62,598 nt of DNA from Spirogloea muscicola (taxonomy: Eukaryota; Streptophyta; Zygnematophyceae; Spirogloeales; Spirogloeaceae), in assembly GCA_009602725.1 (NCBI GenBank), contig WELB01000222.1, positions 30,446 to 93,043 of the forward strand, written 5' to 3'. Positions 40,664 through 49,757 of the stretch are shown here, piece after piece (within the stretch, counting starts at the first letter, position 1; every line of letters begins with the position of its first letter). Below the pieces are notes generated by a model. The model worked only from the letters and a program-made list of their open reading frames with translations. It was not told the origin of the DNA and did not search any database. The position numbers and the translations under genes were made by a program.

Positions 40664-41932
40664 ATGGCNCCTCCCCCGCCCCTTGCCTTCGCTCCCGGGC
40701 TGCCCCCGCCTCTGGTGGCATTGTCCGCCTTGCGGCGGGCTCGGGAGGCCCGACCATCGTGCTGCGCAGCTGCCCCTTGCGCCCTCCAGGCGTGACGTTG
40801 CTGCCCGAGCTGGGCAGGGCCTCAGGGCTGCAGGAGGAGCTGCTGTCACCAGAACCCTGCTTCTCTGCACGAGAGAAGCAGGAGCTACCGCCACCGCCGC
40901 GCAGTAACACACTGCTGATGACCGTCGACGCCGTTCCATGCTGCAGCCTCTTTGCCGGAGCTCCGCGTCTCCAAGAAGGCTGCGCCTCTCGGGCATGGAA
41001 AGTGCGCAAAGAGCCCATCAAAGCGCTTCATCGCTGCAGCTCAGCTCGGGCCTGCTGAGCTATCAGGCGACACCAAGCACAGAGATGCTCCTCCACCAGG
41101 GTGCAGCCGCATCAAAGTCGAGCTCGGCAAGCCACTAGGTGTGCATCAGCTGGCTTCTCCTACGGGTTGTTTGCAGTTGCTGACAAAGAACAAGAGCTGA
41201 CATCGAACAAGAGCCAGCCCGAGGTGGGCTTGACCACACGTAGAGAGGCTGCATGCATGAGTTTGTTGCCGACGTCTTCTGATGCTATCTGCAGGCTTGG
41301 TGCTGGAGGAGGACAGGTCTGGTGGGATCTTTGTGGCAGAGGTGGTGCCCGAAGGCAATGCCGACAAGTCTGGACACGTGGACGTCGGTGATGAGCTCAT
41401 TGCTACCAGCGCTATAGTCTACAGTGGGGAGGAGTCATATGGTGGCGTAAGAGTTCGAAAGGGCATGCAAATTGTGCGCCTTAATGTGAAGGGCGAGCGC
41501 TTTGACACGGTTAGTCCATCTTGTACTGAAACAGTGGTCATCTCAGGCTGCACCTCCATCTAGTTGTGCATATGTCAGCTTAAGCGGCTTTCAATGCTGC
41601 TCTATTTAAACAGCACTTACTCTATGCAGGTCATGGCGGCGATCGGCACACATCCAGCTCATATAAAGGTCAGCTGCAGATCATACTCCAGGCTAATCTT
41701 CAGAACTTTTCACGATGATGTAGTGCGTGTCTTGATAGCCACCATGCCTTGAGCACACATTGTTCTTATTGGCTTACACTGTCGAGGCTCAGCACAGATG
41801 CCACCAATATATACGCGCGTATCACCTTGCGAGAGCATTTGCTAACAGGAAGTCATATGTTGCCAGGTGACAATCGAGGTGCAGAAGTGCAAACCTATGG
41901 GCGAGAATGGAAGTGCTAGATATCAAGCATAG
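40664..41932 (+). CDS. Single-PDZ protein, probably plastid-targeted
   Basis: Predicted start ATG at 40664: 'MAPPPPLAFAPGLPPPLVAL' followed by an Arg/Ala/Ser/Cys-rich stretch that looks like a transit peptide, though an N at 40669 makes the second residues uncertain. After an intron, 'PELRVSKKAAPLGHGKCAKS' (about 40944 on) leads to 'CSRIKVELGKPL'. After a further intron, 41296-41507 gives the PDZ core 'GIFVAEVVPEGNADKSGHVD' and 'VGDELIATSAIVYSGEESYG'. Small exons follow: 'VMAAIGTHPAHIK' (41630-41669) and 'VTIEVQKCKPMGENGSAR' to the TAG at 41932. PDZ domains bind C-terminal peptides. The wording is closest to the plastid PDZ group that includes Arabidopsis MET1/ZKT, but the K-box and TPR parts are absent. 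Target unknown. Confidence 0.72.
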
Positions 41933-42682: not shown

Positions 42683-45600
42683 CTATACATTTGCTAGTGA
42701 AGTTCGACTGTACGAGGCCCTGATAAGGTGTCTCCTCCTCATGACCCACAGCCGTGCTGTGCAACGCAAATAATGGAGAAGAAGAAGGCCTGCGCACATA
42801 CCCAGTATGACCGCAAAGCACAATCCGAGAGTCTGCACCTGCACTTCCTGATATGAGTCCGGTGGCGAGGACGTACGTAGTAACCAAACATCACTAGGTG
42901 GAGCTCTGGACCAGGCATACTGGTGCTTCAGGCGCTGGGGTATAGCCTCAAGTGTCAGCGGCAGGCTGTTGAGGAGTGAGACGAAAAGGGCTGTCCACTT
43001 CTTCAGCACTCTCTGCACCCTCATGCTTTGACAATAATCAGGTCTGTATCCACTAGTCAGACGACCAAGAGCTCTTGTAACATCATCAGACGACCAAGAG
43101 CTCTAGTATCATCATCTCCAAGTAAGACAAGCAGCAATACTAACAACCTTTTAATATTCAAACTTGCCAAAGCAGGAAAAATAGTGGAGGTAATATTAAG
43201 CCGACGCGGGAGATGTACTCGTCATAGCTCACCGAAAAGTCTGTGGTGTTGACAGGGTTGAATGCTCGAAAACAATCATCGACATTGGCACTCTCATCTC
43301 CGTATATCTGCCACATGCAATGACAAAATTCTGGCACAGTGAACACATTATTCAATAAACACAGCACCGTGACGTTTGTCTACGCAGATACAAAGGCCAT
43401 GTTATGGTCCTCTAGCGTAAGTGTACCTCCAATGTCACAGCGATTGGGACACCTAAAATCTCAAAGAGATGATCAACTGCCGTGCCGTGTGCCAGGTACC
43501 TGCACACTGGCAACATGATGAGCCTCTGGCAAACAACCCATGGCTGTTTGACACTGGGCCTTGCCAAATAATGAAGTAGCAGAGTACTGCGACGCGCCTC
43601 CACCTAATCACACATGTATTGCATGTAGGTGAAACAGCAACCAAAGGAGAGGCGCTCACCCTACATATGCTCCTCCAGAGCCAACAGCACAGCCGTTTGA
43701 GCAGTGCCACGCATTTAACTTACTTAGCAGCTCCACAACTGGCTCTGCTGATCCATCCTGAGGCACGCTGCTTCGGTGGTCATATGGAATGAACAGAGCC
43801 TGTGCAGGATTGGCATGGGAAATTTGTCACTGTATCCTGTCTACAGGATCAGCACTCTGAGCAAGGGGCGTCGCGAAACTTTGTGCTTCAAAGCAGCAGC
43901 TGAATCTATGATACTTTGACGAGTTGATTCTGGTACCTCACCTCCGAACCAGAATGAACATTAACCCACAAATGGGGCCTGAAGTCAACAGCAAGCTGCC
44001 GAAGGAGCTGCGACTCTGGCTCGCTGAAGGGCCCTGTGCCAGGAAACTCTTCCTTAGGGTCATAGTCCTGTCATGATCAACATTCAGCCCAGCTACTGCG
44101 ATGAATGCTTCATTTCAGCCCAAGCGGGCGAGCCTATCCTTGCTGACAGCAAGCCTAATCATAACTCGCCATCATGCATACCCACACACAAAATGTCGGC
44201 AGCGAGGGCAGACCTTTTCCTTTTTGCCCCAATCAAGACCCCAGTTCCGGTTGAGGTCAACCCCACGCCCTGCAACCAGGCATAGTGCTTAAAGAGCAGC
44301 TCGTACGGCCTCGCTCAGCCAAATAAATGTTTGCCCCTCGTATGTACAAATTTTCGAGGTACTGACTTGCATGACTTCGAACGAAGACAGGTGGCATCTG
44401 TAGTCACCTACCATTTTTCCTCTCACAAAATGCCCCGGCTTCGAAGAGCTTACGTCCATTCACATTTTCCAAAGGGATAATCTGCATACCATGGCAGCAG
44501 TCATCAAGAGGTGGCAGGTGCAGACCCGCTGCTGCAAAATAGATGGATGCCTGGCCCTGACAAGGGCTGCAGACTAATCTGCATATTGCAATCGAAGGAT
44601 GAACTGTACGGACCACCGCCCCAATTGTGATAGACATTGCTGTCTTCACGCTGAGCTCCGTACCTTAATGAGAAGGTTGGAAAGGAGGCGTTGGAGAGCT
44701 TTCTGTGACAATCCTGGTACAAGGTACTCTCCTACTAGCACTGCTATCAGGCTCAGCGCCAACTCCGAAGTGATTGGCTCCCTGGCATGCTGCCCACACT
44801 CCTGACTTGGCGGAATACAGAGAAGGTCATGTGAAAGTTGTAAGGTTGTGCTAAGTTCACCTTCTTGGAGGCAACAAAAAACAAGCGGAGCATGCTGGAA
44901 AGCAACACAGTATAAGGAATCCCTGGAGGCCTGGAATGCTTGCATGAGCCACCAGGGCTGCGGAAAACATAGGCAACACACATCTACTCAACAACTAATA
45001 AAATGAAGTGCAGTGTATTACAAGCAAGATGCGGATGCGGTGTTCGGCAGTCTGCTCCTGTTGGCCAACGGTAACAATTGTCAAGCTTGTGCTGTAGTTG
45101 CCTGCATGCTGGCTCCGCTTCTCTACCTGCAACAAGCCAGAGAAGGTTTGCGATTCAAAGTGGCACTTTTTCAAGATGCGGAGCAACAGGCTCCTACCCT
45201 TGTCTTAGCAAGTACATTTGGGAAGGCACGATAACAGTTGACGAGCGAGTGCAGAGAGGTTGCCGTCGCTGTTAAATGGTATACACACTTGAACAAGGCC
45301 TGCATGACGGGCTGCAAAGGCATCGACCTCAGCAAACAAGGCATCACTGCAAGCAAGCAGAGGTGAATAGAGGCGAGACAGGAGGCAGAGCCGCGAGTAT
45401 GAGAACGATGAGCACCACGTGCCCGTGCAAAGGGACAAATGACCCAGTCCTATTGCGTATGTAGCATACTGCAGCACCCTTGGCAGACATTGCTGCTCAT
45501 TGGCGCTCCAGGGAGTACAGTGCAAGTGGCAAGATGCAGCATGGTGGACAGCTTCGCGCAGGAAGGGTCGACTGACCTGTGGTGGTACAGCTCGAAGTCG

Positions 45601-45904
45601 GGCTGAGCCAGGGGGAGGGGCCTGCGCTCCTGTCCATGCCCGCCAAGCGGTTGTGAGCTACTCGAGCGGCCACAGCGTGAGCCATCAAAGGCTTCGGCGC
45701 GAGGAGGACTCGGACGGGCAAGCGGCACGGTGCCACTTCCTCGTGGCGCTCGGGCGGCGGAGCGTACTGAGGGGGGATTGGGGCATCGATCACCTTGTCA
45801 GCTGTCAGGCGCGATGCCGGCGGAGCTGCGGCGCCGAACGGGAGCGCAGCGGTGGTGCAGAGGGCCACGAGCGCGGCGCTGAGGGCGCAGAGGCGGCGAT
45901 GCAT
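42683..45904 (-). CDS. M14 zinc metallocarboxypeptidase, membrane-anchored (At5g42320-like)
   Basis: About ten exons from the ATG at 45904 to a TAG at 42683. The N-terminus 'MHRRLCALSAALVALCTTAA' is a signal peptide. Zinc motif 1 is HxxE in 'CGQHAREPITSELALSLIAV' (about 44740-44810). Substrate-site wording 'PLENVNGRKLFEAGAFCERK' (44408-44475) and 'RGVDLNRNWGLDWGKKEK' (44225-44280) follows. The second zinc His is in 'FRPHLWVNVHSGSE' (about 43953). The pocket segment is 'GCAVGSGGAYVG', then 'YLAHGTAVDHLFEILGVPIA', with the catalytic Glu in 'VTLEIYGDE'. The last exon ends in a hydrophobic span ('LGLCFAVILGMCAGLLLLHY'), so the enzyme is predicted to be anchored with its catalytic domain in the lumen or outside. 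Exon order agrees throughout with the plant protein. The family trims C-terminal residues of peptides; the substrate is unknown. Starts ~200 bp from the divergent serine hydrolase. Confidence 0.9.
43058..43115. repeat. 29-bp direct repeat in a carboxypeptidase intron
   Basis: 'cagacgaccaagagctct' followed by 'tgtaacatcat' or 'agtatcatcat', twice in a row. Lies in the intron upstream of the last carboxypeptidase exon. Confidence 0.7.
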
Positions 45905-46102: not shown

Positions 46103-49100
46103 ATGGCGGCGCCGCGCGACTCCGCCTTCCTGCGCGCCGTGCTGGCGGCGCACCCGCGGCAGTTCGGCGCCGCCATGGAGCGCGCGCCCGAGCTGCGCTT
46201 CCAGGCACGCGCCGCGCCGCCTGCCCGGCCCGCTGGCCAAGGGCGCTGCCGCTCGCTGACCGCCGACCAGCCCCCCAGCCGCGCCGCTCAGGTGCTGGTG
46301 TCGGAGGTGCGCGAGGGCGGGCGCGGCGGCGAGCCCGAGCTGCTGCGCCACGGCTTCCGGGCCGACGAGGAGTACTTCTACCCCGCCAGGTCCCGCCCGC
46401 GCCCTCGCCTCTGCCTCGGCCTCCAGCAGCCACATGAACGCCCCGGCGTCGCTGACGCCCCCGCACCCTGTGCCGCCTGCAAGCCTCGCCGCCCTTGCCA
46501 AGGTGCTCCAGCGGCACCTCACGCTGGCGTTGTCATCTCCGTGGCTCTGCTTGGGCTGGCTCCAGCTCCATCAAGATCTGTGCTGCCATTGCGGCCCTCC
46601 AGGAGCTGTCGCGTCTGCAAACCAGCCTGGGTACGCTCTTGCTGGTCAGACCAGCAGCCTGCAGGAGGACAGCTGCTGCTTGCATGGGCAGGCATAGTGC
46701 AACGCCCCTAACCCCCTGCCCCTCCCTCTCCTTCCATCTCCTATATAGCACCACCTGACTCTGAGCATGCTCACCAGGTGTTGAGCTGAGCCCGATCACG
46801 CCCCTCACGGTGCTGCCGCTGTTCAGCAGCTACCCGGACGCTCAAGACAAGGATTCGTCCAATCTGAATGGAGGAAGAATCACAGTGGCCCATGAGATCC
46901 GGAAGCTGTTCTTGGCAAGGCACCTGCCGATGAGTCCAGCCTGGTCCACCTTTCTGGGCAAAGGCGCCTGTCGTACAGAGCAAGGTCCAGCATTGGCGTC
47001 TTGGAGAGTCTGATCAGAATTGTTGGCTGAGGTGTCCGCTCCCTGTTCGTGAGTGTCAGGCTTGTTGCTCTTTGAGCTGCGTGTGAAAGCAGGGCATTTA
47101 GCGCAATTGCAGCTGTTTAGCTTGTATATCCTGAAAGTGTCACCGACGTAAGGGAAATGGAGGCCACCAGCTGAGCTGGACTCTCTGTGCAGGTGTCTGA
47201 CAATCAGGCTTACAACCGGCTCTACGCCTTGGTCGGTCAAAAGCGACTCAACCAAGCAATGTACGCCCTTCTGTCCCTGTGCGTGCATGACGTCTGGCTC
47301 TCTCACTGTCTTGTGATGAAGGAGGCCTTTCGAGGTCATTCGTACTGCTAGCACTCCTAAGTCAGGAAGGATACTTTCTGTGGTGGTGCGCAGGTGGGAT
47401 GCTGGCTTGAGCAGTGTGAGGCTGCGTCACAGGCTATCTCTGCCACTGACTGCAGAGGAGAACCATTTCTGTGAGCCGCTGGAGATTGGTGTGGAGCAGC
47501 AGCCCTTCAGCATCCCGCCCAAGCACAACTTGGCTAAACTCCCCCTGGACAGGCACCATGTGGGCGCTCTGGTTGGGAAGGCGTATGTCAAAGATGGAAG
47601 CCAGCTGGTACTGTCTTCATTTAAGTTCCCCAGTGTCCCAGTTTCTCAGAAGCTCATCTTCCATTTTCATAGAGTTCATAGAGTTTCATAGATGATAGAC
47701 TTTCTCTGGCCAGGGAGGATGAGGTTGTCCTGCATGTGCCAGCAGCGCATGCAATACACTAATCCTCAGGCCTCAAGTCGCTGCGTCCACCATGTTCAGG
47801 TGAAGAAGCCCATGGACTTCTCAGTGAAGAATGTAGCTTCACTGGTGGACCTCCAGGACCTACTGGTGAAGCTCATGAGAAGCGACATCCATGTGGGTGC
47901 TCCTACTCCAAGATGCTCCGTTGGCTGGTCAGCCACGTCCCTCAGCTCCCCTGGACTGTGGGTGTAATATGTCCATTTCAAGTGCACGACCTGACTTGAG
48001 CCCTAACAGCAACTAGTGAACGGCATCTATTTGGCTGCTAAGTCAATACCCTTTGGATTGACTTTTTTTCGTAACAGCCTGGAAGCCCTGGTTTGCTGTT
48101 GAGCAGTGGCCAAAGACAACTCCTTCAAGAGGCAATGCTGCAGTACCCCTCTCAGTCACATAGTCCTCGTTATTCAGCCAGAGAATTCCCCGATGACTAC
48201 TGCAAGGTGAGTGCTCTTGCAACTCTGTCCACTAAGTCATCTGACATGGCTAAATGCACTAGTATAAGTGGAAAGCATTCTGGACAGGGCACAGGAAACG
48301 GACCATGATTCAGTTGTTTTGTGCTGATCATGGGGCAGTTCTTCCTACCGGGCCTTTGCAAAGTACGGCCTAAGGCGGCGATTAGGGTCTACAACAAGGT
48401 CGGGCAGGCCTATGGCTTCACTGTGGACAACTCGTGAGAATCCACATTCCCGTCAGGGCCACTCGAAGTACGCTCGCATTACTGGTGCCACAGATTAAAA
48501 CAAAAGCTCTGTCACATCTTCCTAACGGGTCTCCTTATGCTGTTCAGCTGGCCACTCTGTTGCCGGTGTTGTTGGCAGGTACGTCTTTGATGTTGAGACG
48601 GGAAGGTCCTTCTTCATGTCTATGTCAATTTACACTAATGCCAATGGCGTGCTCGATGACGATAAGTACGAGTATGACACAGCCCTCCGCCTGGCAGCCG
48701 ATCTGGGAGAGGTCATAGCTCGAGCTATCTGGCAGGTATTTCCAGCTCGCACACCAGGTCTTCACTTAGCTATGTTATACTGTGATCCTCGCCTGTGCTT
48801 CAGTCGTCCTCATACTTGCTTGGTTCCAGCGGCCTCATACTTGCTCAAGTACAAGGACGCTTGTAGCATCTGGCAATGCAACAGCAAGTGCTGCAAGTGA
48901 GCAGCTCCCCTTATGCTGTTCACGCTCACCAGGTCCCACACAGGTATACCGTCAACAAGCCACTGACATCCAACAGGGAGATTCAGCCCTGCTCAGAGCT
49001 TGTCGAAGAAAGGCAACAAACGCCAGACCTGATGGAATGCCCCGCTGAAAGCTCGTTGCAAGGCGTCGCCAAGCGCAGATCATCATCGGTGAGCTGTGGC

Positions 49101-49757
49101 ATGGCTGGCCTGACATCGAGCAGAACAAAGAGAGATATCCAGCATAAATGTCACGAGACAGGGACATTGCGGGCTGGGGCTTTTGACTGCACAAAGTCTC
49201 AGGCAAAGGCAGCTTGGGTGGCAGATGAGCTTGTCGACTATTCGTCCCAGACCAATCTGGCCCCTCAGCAAGGAGCACGTCCTGACCAAGAGGCTCGTGC
49301 AGATGAGCAAGCTTGTCCCTTGGGAGAGGGAAGCGAAGCAACACTGCTGTTGGCAGCTGCCAGCAGCTGCAGTCATCCGATGGGCATGATTGATGCTGAG
49401 CTTGCTTCTGCAAGCAACCTAGCAGACGCACTTACCAGCACTTTGACAATGTGCACTGCAGAGCAGACAGAAGATCTGCTGCATCACTCTTTGGGTGCCG
49501 CAGTCAGAGATAGAGAATACGATTGGCTTGCTCGTTCCCTGACAGAAAGAGAAAATGAAGTCCCTGGCTCTATTTGCAATGTGAAGTCTAGTGTAGACCT
49601 TGATGCTTGTGAGTGTGCATTGCCAGCTGTGAGGGGCAAACCTTCTCAAATCAGCAAGGTACACATTTGCTTGGCGCGTGCTGAAGTTGTTGCCCCAACT
49701 AGGATTGGGCTGCAGTCCTTTGTGAAGCAACTGTACAAATATTATCTGGACCAATAA
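46103..49757 (+). CDS. Class-A beta-lactamase-fold serine hydrolase with C-terminal extension
   Basis: About eleven exons. ATG at 46103: 'MAAPRDSAFLRAVLAAHPRQ', then 'VLVSEVREGGRGGEPELLRH' (46291-46389). The nucleophile SxxK is in 'YFYPA|SSIKICAAIAALQEL' (acceptor near 46565). 'ITVAHEIRKLFL|VSDNQAYNRLYALVG' supplies the SDN triad (near 47196). Later exons give 'DAGLSSVRLRHRLSLPL' (47396 on), 'KKPMDFSVKNVASLVDLQDL' (47802 on) and 'REFPDDYCK' (to 48206). The third conserved element, K-V-G, is in 'AIRVYNKVGQAYGFTVDNS' (48388-48435). 'YVFDVETGRSFFMSMSIYTN' closes the fold (48580-48735). Bacterial proteins of this type, annotated as serine hydrolase and common in Bacteroidetes, share the wording and end about here. 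A phase-compatible 275-codon exon (48933-49757) without recognisable domain may extend the protein; otherwise it ends at 48900. Two introns appear to use GC donors. Substrate unknown; nothing shows antibiotic activity. Confidence 0.82.

Follow-up and report, generated by a model that had tools for sequence, protein, structure and literature searches.

An intron-rich gene of Spirogloea muscicola for a predicted penicillin-recognising serine hydrolase of bacterial type

How does a serine hydrolase of bacterial type come to be encoded by an intron-rich gene in an alga, and what might it do there? The question is raised by a locus within a stretch of 62,598 nucleotides of Spirogloea muscicola DNA (the window), which lies on contig C222 (WELB01000222.1) of a 153-Mb assembly. 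The gene occupies 46103-49757 of the window on the + strand, with an ATG at 46103 and a stop codon that ends at 49757. Conceptual splicing of the genomic DNA gives a model of 11 exons encoding 660 amino acids, of which we term residues 1-386 the core and the last 274 residues the tail. From its motifs and profile matches the product is predicted to be a penicillin-recognising serine hydrolase of the PF13354 superfamily, in a subfamily with the motif series SSIK-SDN-K[TVI]G-QAYGF. What is new is thus another predicted member of PF13354, a known kind of enzyme in an unusual host, encoded by a eukaryotic gene that appears intact, is under selection and is of bacterial type.

Pfam family PF13354 matches residues 59-349 with E = 2.1e-13 and 50.6 bits against a gathering threshold of 22, covering profile positions 17-212 of 214. 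A sequence-only reading of the locus had placed three active-site elements in order, and they are found so: SxxK (as SSIK) at residues 67-70, SDN at 136-138 and KVG at 322-324. The motif pattern of the family (SxxK, SxN and K-[TS]-G in order) is recovered provided that the third motif is allowed a wider choice of middle residue. The exons are listed below by window position; C206 is a contig that carries a second copy of the gene.

46103-46204, + strand: exon 1, start codon and residues 1-34, signal peptide not seen by eye, GC donor; boundary the same in the C206 copy
46292-46389, + strand: exon 2, ending within the codon of catalytic Ser67 (AG|C); from the model and the C206 copy
46566-46630, + strand: exon 3, completing Ser67, with Lys70 of SxxK at 46573-46575; from the model, the C206 copy and the bacterial alignment
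46778-46914, + strand: exon 4, GC donor; from the model and the C206 copy
47193-47260, + strand: exon 5, SDN motif at 47196-47204; from the model, the C206 copy and the bacterial alignment
47394-47607, + strand: exon 6, HRLS region, where the class A omega-loop Glu is expected; from the model, the C206 copy and the bacterial alignment
47800-47892, + strand: exon 7; from the model and the C206 copy
48078-48206, + strand: exon 8; from the model and the C206 copy
48339-48433, + strand: exon 9, K-V-G at 48396-48404, followed by QAYGF; from the model, the C206 copy and the bacterial alignment
48579-48735, + strand: exon 10, in which the conserved domain ends (DDDKYEY region); from the model, the C206 copy and the bacterial alignment
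48933-49757, + strand: exon 11, 274-residue C-terminal tail and stop codon; open in both copies, with a ratio of nonsynonymous to synonymous substitution rates (dN/dS) of about 1

The ten introns are 87-278 bases long. Eight are GT-AG and two, introns 1 and 4, are GC-AG, and intron 2 interrupts the Ser67 codon. The copy on C206 (locus L008) agrees with the model in 11 of 11 exons, at every boundary and in the stop codon, so the description of 46103-49757 as an intron-rich eukaryotic gene with about ten introns is borne out. The GC-donor introns, at 46205-46291 and 46915-47192, are both kept in this copy; GC-AG introns may be common in the genome. Identity between the copies is 89-99% in exons and 79-91% in introns. 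The gene is resident in a eukaryotic genome, because it has ten introns, an intron-bearing neighbor encoding an M14 zinc carboxypeptidase, and a second copy on another contig. Contamination is rejected on the strength of the introns and the second copy.

The core is under clear purifying selection. Over its 386 codons the two algal copies give dN = 0.022 and dS = 0.151, a ratio of 0.145 (bootstrap 0.07-0.25), with 14, 6 and 37 substitutions at the first, second and third codon positions. Estimation by YN00 gives dN/dS of 0.16 for the core and 1.28 for the tail. On the explanation that we consider best, the catalytic domain is most likely functional and conserved.

Where are its relatives? We looked in 84,980 species of bacteria and archaea for six exact peptides of the algal protein, a search that reaches close relatives only. 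Sixteen stretches were returned, two of which encode relatives, L009 in a Verrucomicrobia metagenome-assembled genome (MAG) and L010 in a Thermoanaerobaculia MAG. These are 48% and 41% identical to the algal protein respectively, and the BLAST match spans residues 12-383. Searches with single proteins found relatives in 2 of 387 genomes of the first phylum and 2 of 297 of the second, counting the search-centre genome in each. A profile built from the five proteins of alignment A1 matched 12 genomes among the 293 of the first order and 12 among the 148 of the second class, again with the centres included and with some of the matches partial. The subfamily is patchy even within the bacterial groups searched.

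There were 26 loci with a profile match. The 21 with spans greater than 330 residues were used, and the partial L025, L026, L027, L037 and L039 were dropped; in L031 and L034 the span that matched contains a stop, and their open part was entered. In the resulting alignment the 21 bacterial rows are 29.5 to 46.1% identical to the alga. SxxK, SDN and K-[TVI]-G are kept in all 21, the middle residue of the third motif being I in 15, T in 3 and V in 3. The K-V-G that had been singled out as standing in place of KTG is therefore present, but it is not unusual in this subfamily. The nearest relatives found, from Verrucomicrobia and Acidobacteria, are intronless. The algal protein shares with L009 and L010 a nearly full-length domain, the order SxxK-SDN-KxG, and the QAYGF and YEY motifs. 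It differs from them in having ten introns and the 274-residue tail, while an export signal and the acid after HRL-S were not seen in it.

All five A1 proteins match PF13354. A search of the PDB with profile A3 gave 28 sequences, named as beta-lactamases or class A-like proteins, LRA-5, the regulatory protein BlaB and DD-carboxypeptidases, and SDN is aligned to SDN in all three of the alignments shown. The single algal sequence gave no match among the solved structures of the PDB, and the profile matches are at superfamily level only. This includes the likeness to D-alanyl-D-alanine carboxypeptidases (PDB 4p0m), which is weak (E = 0.015) and covers profile positions 83-175 only.

Penicillin-recognising enzymes employ a serine nucleophile and a lysine base, with proton relay by a second Ser/Lys pair, and proceed through an acyl-enzyme. 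By analogy, Ser67 would be the nucleophile and Lys70 the base, with Ser136 and Lys322 providing the proton relay. Attack on an acyl group, whether in a peptide of the D-Ala-D-Ala type or in a comparable amide or ester, would generate the acyl-enzyme, followed by release. Class A beta-lactamases additionally need Glu166, in the R-x-E omega loop, for fast deacylation. The algal stretch reads HRLSLP or HRLSVP in the two copies, and a counterpart of the R-x-E Glu166 was not seen in this alignment, which places the loop without structural proof. At the R-x-x-E position the bacterial rows have E in 18 and D in 1, with I and V in L012 and L038, and L035 (HRLEE) has E at both the R-x-E and R-x-x-E positions. 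L012 (G365) and L038 (G1006) are the most divergent of the 21 rows and, like the alga, have no acid after HRL-S; they may be another branch of the family. Turnover of beta-lactams by the algal protein is probably poor, because the counterpart of Glu166 is not seen, and a DD-peptidase- or esterase-like acyl-enzyme appears more plausible than a beta-lactamase.

Could the protein nevertheless be a beta-lactamase, shielding the alga or the plastid within it against antibiotics that soil microbes produce? It belongs to PF13354, and its SxxK and SDN align with the solved chains of class A enzymes of the TEM/CTX-M/Toho type. There are also weak class A matches, in that four of the five A1 proteins match the NCBIfam class A model NF033103 at E up to 0.01 (best 3.8e-6), although this is expected since they are in the same superfamily. 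Yet the algal protein scores 19.1 bits in that model against a curated cut-off of 200, its core is about 100 residues longer, and HRLS[LV]P is found where R-x-E is expected. We therefore rejected beta-lactamase as the principal assignment, and regard a shielding role as very unlikely.

The simplest reading of these comparisons, and most likely the right one, is capture of the gene from a bacterium by an algal ancestor. The full explanation that we favor, and hold to be reasonably probable, is that the captured gene would have gained ten introns, lost its export signal, and been copied together with the flanking DNA when the genome was duplicated or triplicated, the product acting by the chemistry set out above. 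Beta-lactamase is named among genes gained by plants through transfer in an extract of PMC9667741. Two scans of viral contigs, one with the algal protein and one with alignment A1, found no relative, and a viral origin was dropped. A plasmid search with the algal protein and with L012 gave no match, nor did a PADLOC search for defence systems. In a literature search covering titles and abstracts, with few subscription journals, no publication on this gene was recognised among the matches listed, which is weak evidence.

We constructed a tree from the 21 bacterial rows and both algal copies only. In it the alga lies apart from both of the groups sampled, Verrucomicrobia and Acidobacteria, at a fork that lacks support. 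On removal of the very long L012 row, support for the alga with Verrucomicrobia is 75/58, and the approximately unbiased test gives p-AU = 0.074 for the alga with Acidobacteria, 0.146 for the alga with L014, 0.441 for the alga with L038, and 0.382 for Verrucomicrobia with Acidobacteria to the exclusion of the alga. The suggestion of a domesticated bacterial acquisition stands as regards the many introns, the selected core and the relatives in bacteria, but the donor group is not resolved by the tree.

A number of points weigh against the explanation that we favor. In the full tree the Verrucomicrobia group of ten rows (100/100) and the Acidobacteria group of eight (92/89) are both recovered, but the alga is not joined to either one with support. 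Relatives were sampled from Verrucomicrobia and Acidobacteria only, so nearer ones in Bacteroidota or eukaryotes may have been missed. The gene structure is known here from DNA sequence alone. The acid that follows HRL-S is replaced by L or V in the alga, and its chemistry may differ from that of most bacterial members. Profile searches of the PDB gave weak matches (best E = 3.2e-4 and 1.2e-4), whose best stretches cover the SDN half and end before the K-x-G region. Lastly, an AlphaFold2 model of L009, made with a two-sequence alignment of L009 and L010, has a mean pLDDT (predicted local distance difference test) of 36.6 and a pTM (predicted template modelling) score of 0.34; structure prediction was thus run on this relative, with the motifs placed by sequence only. 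As to Bacteroidota, these bacteria carry the same motif wording and lie outside the sampled set. PF13354 was matched in 8 of 14 control genomes, including Synechococcus, and Bacteroides ihuae is not among the eight, which is weakly against an origin in Bacteroidota.

The position of the alga in the tree also bears on vertical descent, by which an old eukaryotic or plastid-derived gene would look bacterial as a result of patchy loss elsewhere. In favor of this, a long branch leads to the algal copies, which fall outside the bacterial groups sampled, and ten introns together with purifying selection show long residence. The relatives found are nevertheless bacterial, a point of little weight given that the comparison set held bacteria only, and the presence of PF13354 in the Synechococcus control concerns the family in general, leaving aside a subfamily-level comparison with cyanobacteria. 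We consider vertical descent unlikely and retain bacterial capture as the preferred explanation.

Loss of an export signal is part of that explanation. Export-type N-termini are apparent by eye on several bacterial members, and L014 and L018 have a clear LAGC lipobox. In the algal protein no more than about 11 residues precede the part that can be aligned with bacteria, and a signal of the export type was not seen. For both reasons we infer a cytosolic location by default.

The C-terminal tail behaves quite differently from the core. It had been described as an extra exon of about 275 residues without known domain, and an open frame of 274 residues is indeed found; a Pfam scan of these residues gave no family. 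Between the two copies dN = 0.122 and dS = 0.124, a ratio of 0.99 (interval 0.62-1.70), and the substitutions are spread evenly over codon positions (38, 25 and 30), which argues against a new domain. By thirds of the tail dN/dS is 1.21, 1.89 and 0.52, and the final 25 residues differ at two positions. Might the exon 11 frame not be translated as modeled, with the protein ending soon after exon 10? The neutral ratio and the contrast in codon-position changes with the core would fit this, as would the fall in G+C content at third codon positions from 0.73 in the core to 0.49 in the tail. Moreover, long frames are not rare here, as 19 of the 3907 stop-to-stop frames on both strands of the window reach at least 250 codons. 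Against this, both copies keep the frame open, over 275 codons in the one and 277 in the second, and the sole length difference is 6 nucleotides in frame. The preceding splice sites are conserved, as is the end of the tail. None of 2000 first-order simulated sequences of local composition reached 275 open codons, and 93 neutral changes left the tail free of stops in 288 of 5000 simulations. An untranslated tail is possible, though we doubt it. The tail is probably a translated, largely disordered addition with a short conserved end, tolerated rather than selected as a whole and less striking than first suggested.

What kind of genome harbors the gene? Chlorophyll a/b-binding genes give 68 exon matches. 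One light-harvesting complex (LHC) exon compared with the PDB has as its best match a 620-residue LHCI chain, in two stretches, followed by Lhcb chains; the highest of these we take to be moss and seed-plant entries, ahead of others presumably from Chlamydomonas, the listing itself giving no organisms. GRAS genes, which among green plants mark Zygnematophyceae and land plants, give 92 exon matches, often with one model segment recurring on three contigs (for example C53/C160/C91 and C28/C27/C180, as judged by eye). These features fit a streptophyte, most likely a zygnematophyte with a triplicated genome. Spirogloea muscicola is named, in an extract of PMC12866927, among species with many duplications ascribed to genome duplication, triplication or polyploidy. 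Triples of gene families seen by eye on three contigs (GRAS exons on C53/C160/C91, LHC exons on C130/C37/C98) fit genome triplication. For the hydrolase only two copies were detected; a third may be lost, unassembled or missed.

The plastid offers a possible site of action. A PBP1A-type gene with transglycosylase and transpeptidase exons lies at C107:92500-100300 (L044, L046). Its transglycosylase pieces score 58.5, 40.1 and 53.3 bits against 27. Of the transpeptidase pieces, one joined from two exons scores 41.1 bits against 22.1, a second scores 16.5, below the cut-off, and a third has no match. The initial PF00905 match at C107 was weak (30.5 bits, with two stops within the span) and was checked by reading the locus. 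The encoded protein shares the penicillin-recognising superfamily with the hydrolase and is set apart by family (PF00912/PF00905), not by sequence comparison. Its gene suggests that at least some of the machinery for plastid peptidoglycan is retained in this alga. In the desmid Closterium, according to an extract of PMC3398972, chloroplast division is blocked by ampicillin, D-cycloserine and fosfomycin.

Recruitment of the hydrolase to the plastid, where it would trim or remodel any peptidoglycan still made in this lineage beside the PBP1A-type protein, draws on that gene and on the common superfamily. The N-terminal residues, at most 11 or so, leave no room for an ordinary transit peptide, however, and the plastid peptidoglycan layer is said in an extract of PMC10784329 to be lost in many Streptophyta. 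A search of the genome for the D-Ala-D-Ala ligase family gave 0 matches, which says little, as a PF13354 search of the same kind missed both the window gene and its C206 copy; we do not read the empty search as loss, because family searches of this genome miss intron-split genes. We think such a plastid role quite unlikely.

The genome holds a second, distinct PF13354 gene, in three similar copies at C15:1220458, C85:26018 and C128:84135 (L001-L003, L045), adjoining what appears by eye to be a SET-domain gene. In the C15 copy, among joined exon pieces, that with FPLASVVK scores 56.6 bits and that with SDNTAADL 31.2 bits to PF13354, the former also matching PF00144 (31.9); a third piece scores 13.5, below the PF13354 cut-off, and the GSILGVCNDAGII piece has no match. 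This gene may have been acquired separately, with a copy in each of three subgenomes. A composite picture, in which a captured enzyme that lost its export signal and carries a fast-evolving tail with a conserved end acts inside the cell as one of two PF13354 genes, possibly on plastid peptidoglycan beside the PBP1A-type protein, is speculative and rather improbable as a whole.

The gene upstream of the hydrolase is divergently oriented, and we place it outside the hydrolase system:

42740-45904, - strand: M14 zinc carboxypeptidase gene, approximate extent by eye

The carboxypeptidase neighbor that had been described is found, with 198 bp between the two start codons. Four M14 pieces were compared with Pfam; one scores 22.5 bits against 21.6, one scores 12.7, below the cut-off, and two have no match. 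It had further been suggested that the two might be paired, with chance as an equal possibility; such a functional pair would share a promoter and trim C-termini in succession. The short intergenic distance is consistent with this, and matching upstream DNA precedes the C206 copy too (by eye), though a gap of Ns removes the M14 start there. However, C206 carries a duplicated version of this segment, so that conservation of gene order reflects one event and the shared arrangement provides no independent evidence for a pair. On inspection by eye, the M14 protein starts with a hydrophobic segment resembling a signal and carries another hydrophobic stretch at its C-terminus. The hydrolase has neither; the two are probably in different compartments. 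Nor was an M14 neighbor recognised by eye at the bacterial loci L009 and L010. The proposed pairing is not upheld by these observations, and we regard it as highly improbable. Further along, an open frame at window 41261-41563 (+ strand) resembles a PDZ-domain segment by eye.

No living organisms are more closely related to land plants than the streptophyte algae. Soil bacteria have been proposed as the source from which Zygnematophyceae obtained GRAS and PYR/PYL genes by transfer (an extract of PMC9667741, citing Cheng et al. 2019). If our explanation is correct, the hydrolase, a conserved penicillin-recognising enzyme of bacterial type that seems to act inside the cell, would join GRAS and PYR/PYL as a candidate for such transfer. 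With a PBP1A-type gene in the same genome, the hydrolase would also be a concrete candidate for the trimming of plastid peptidoglycan.

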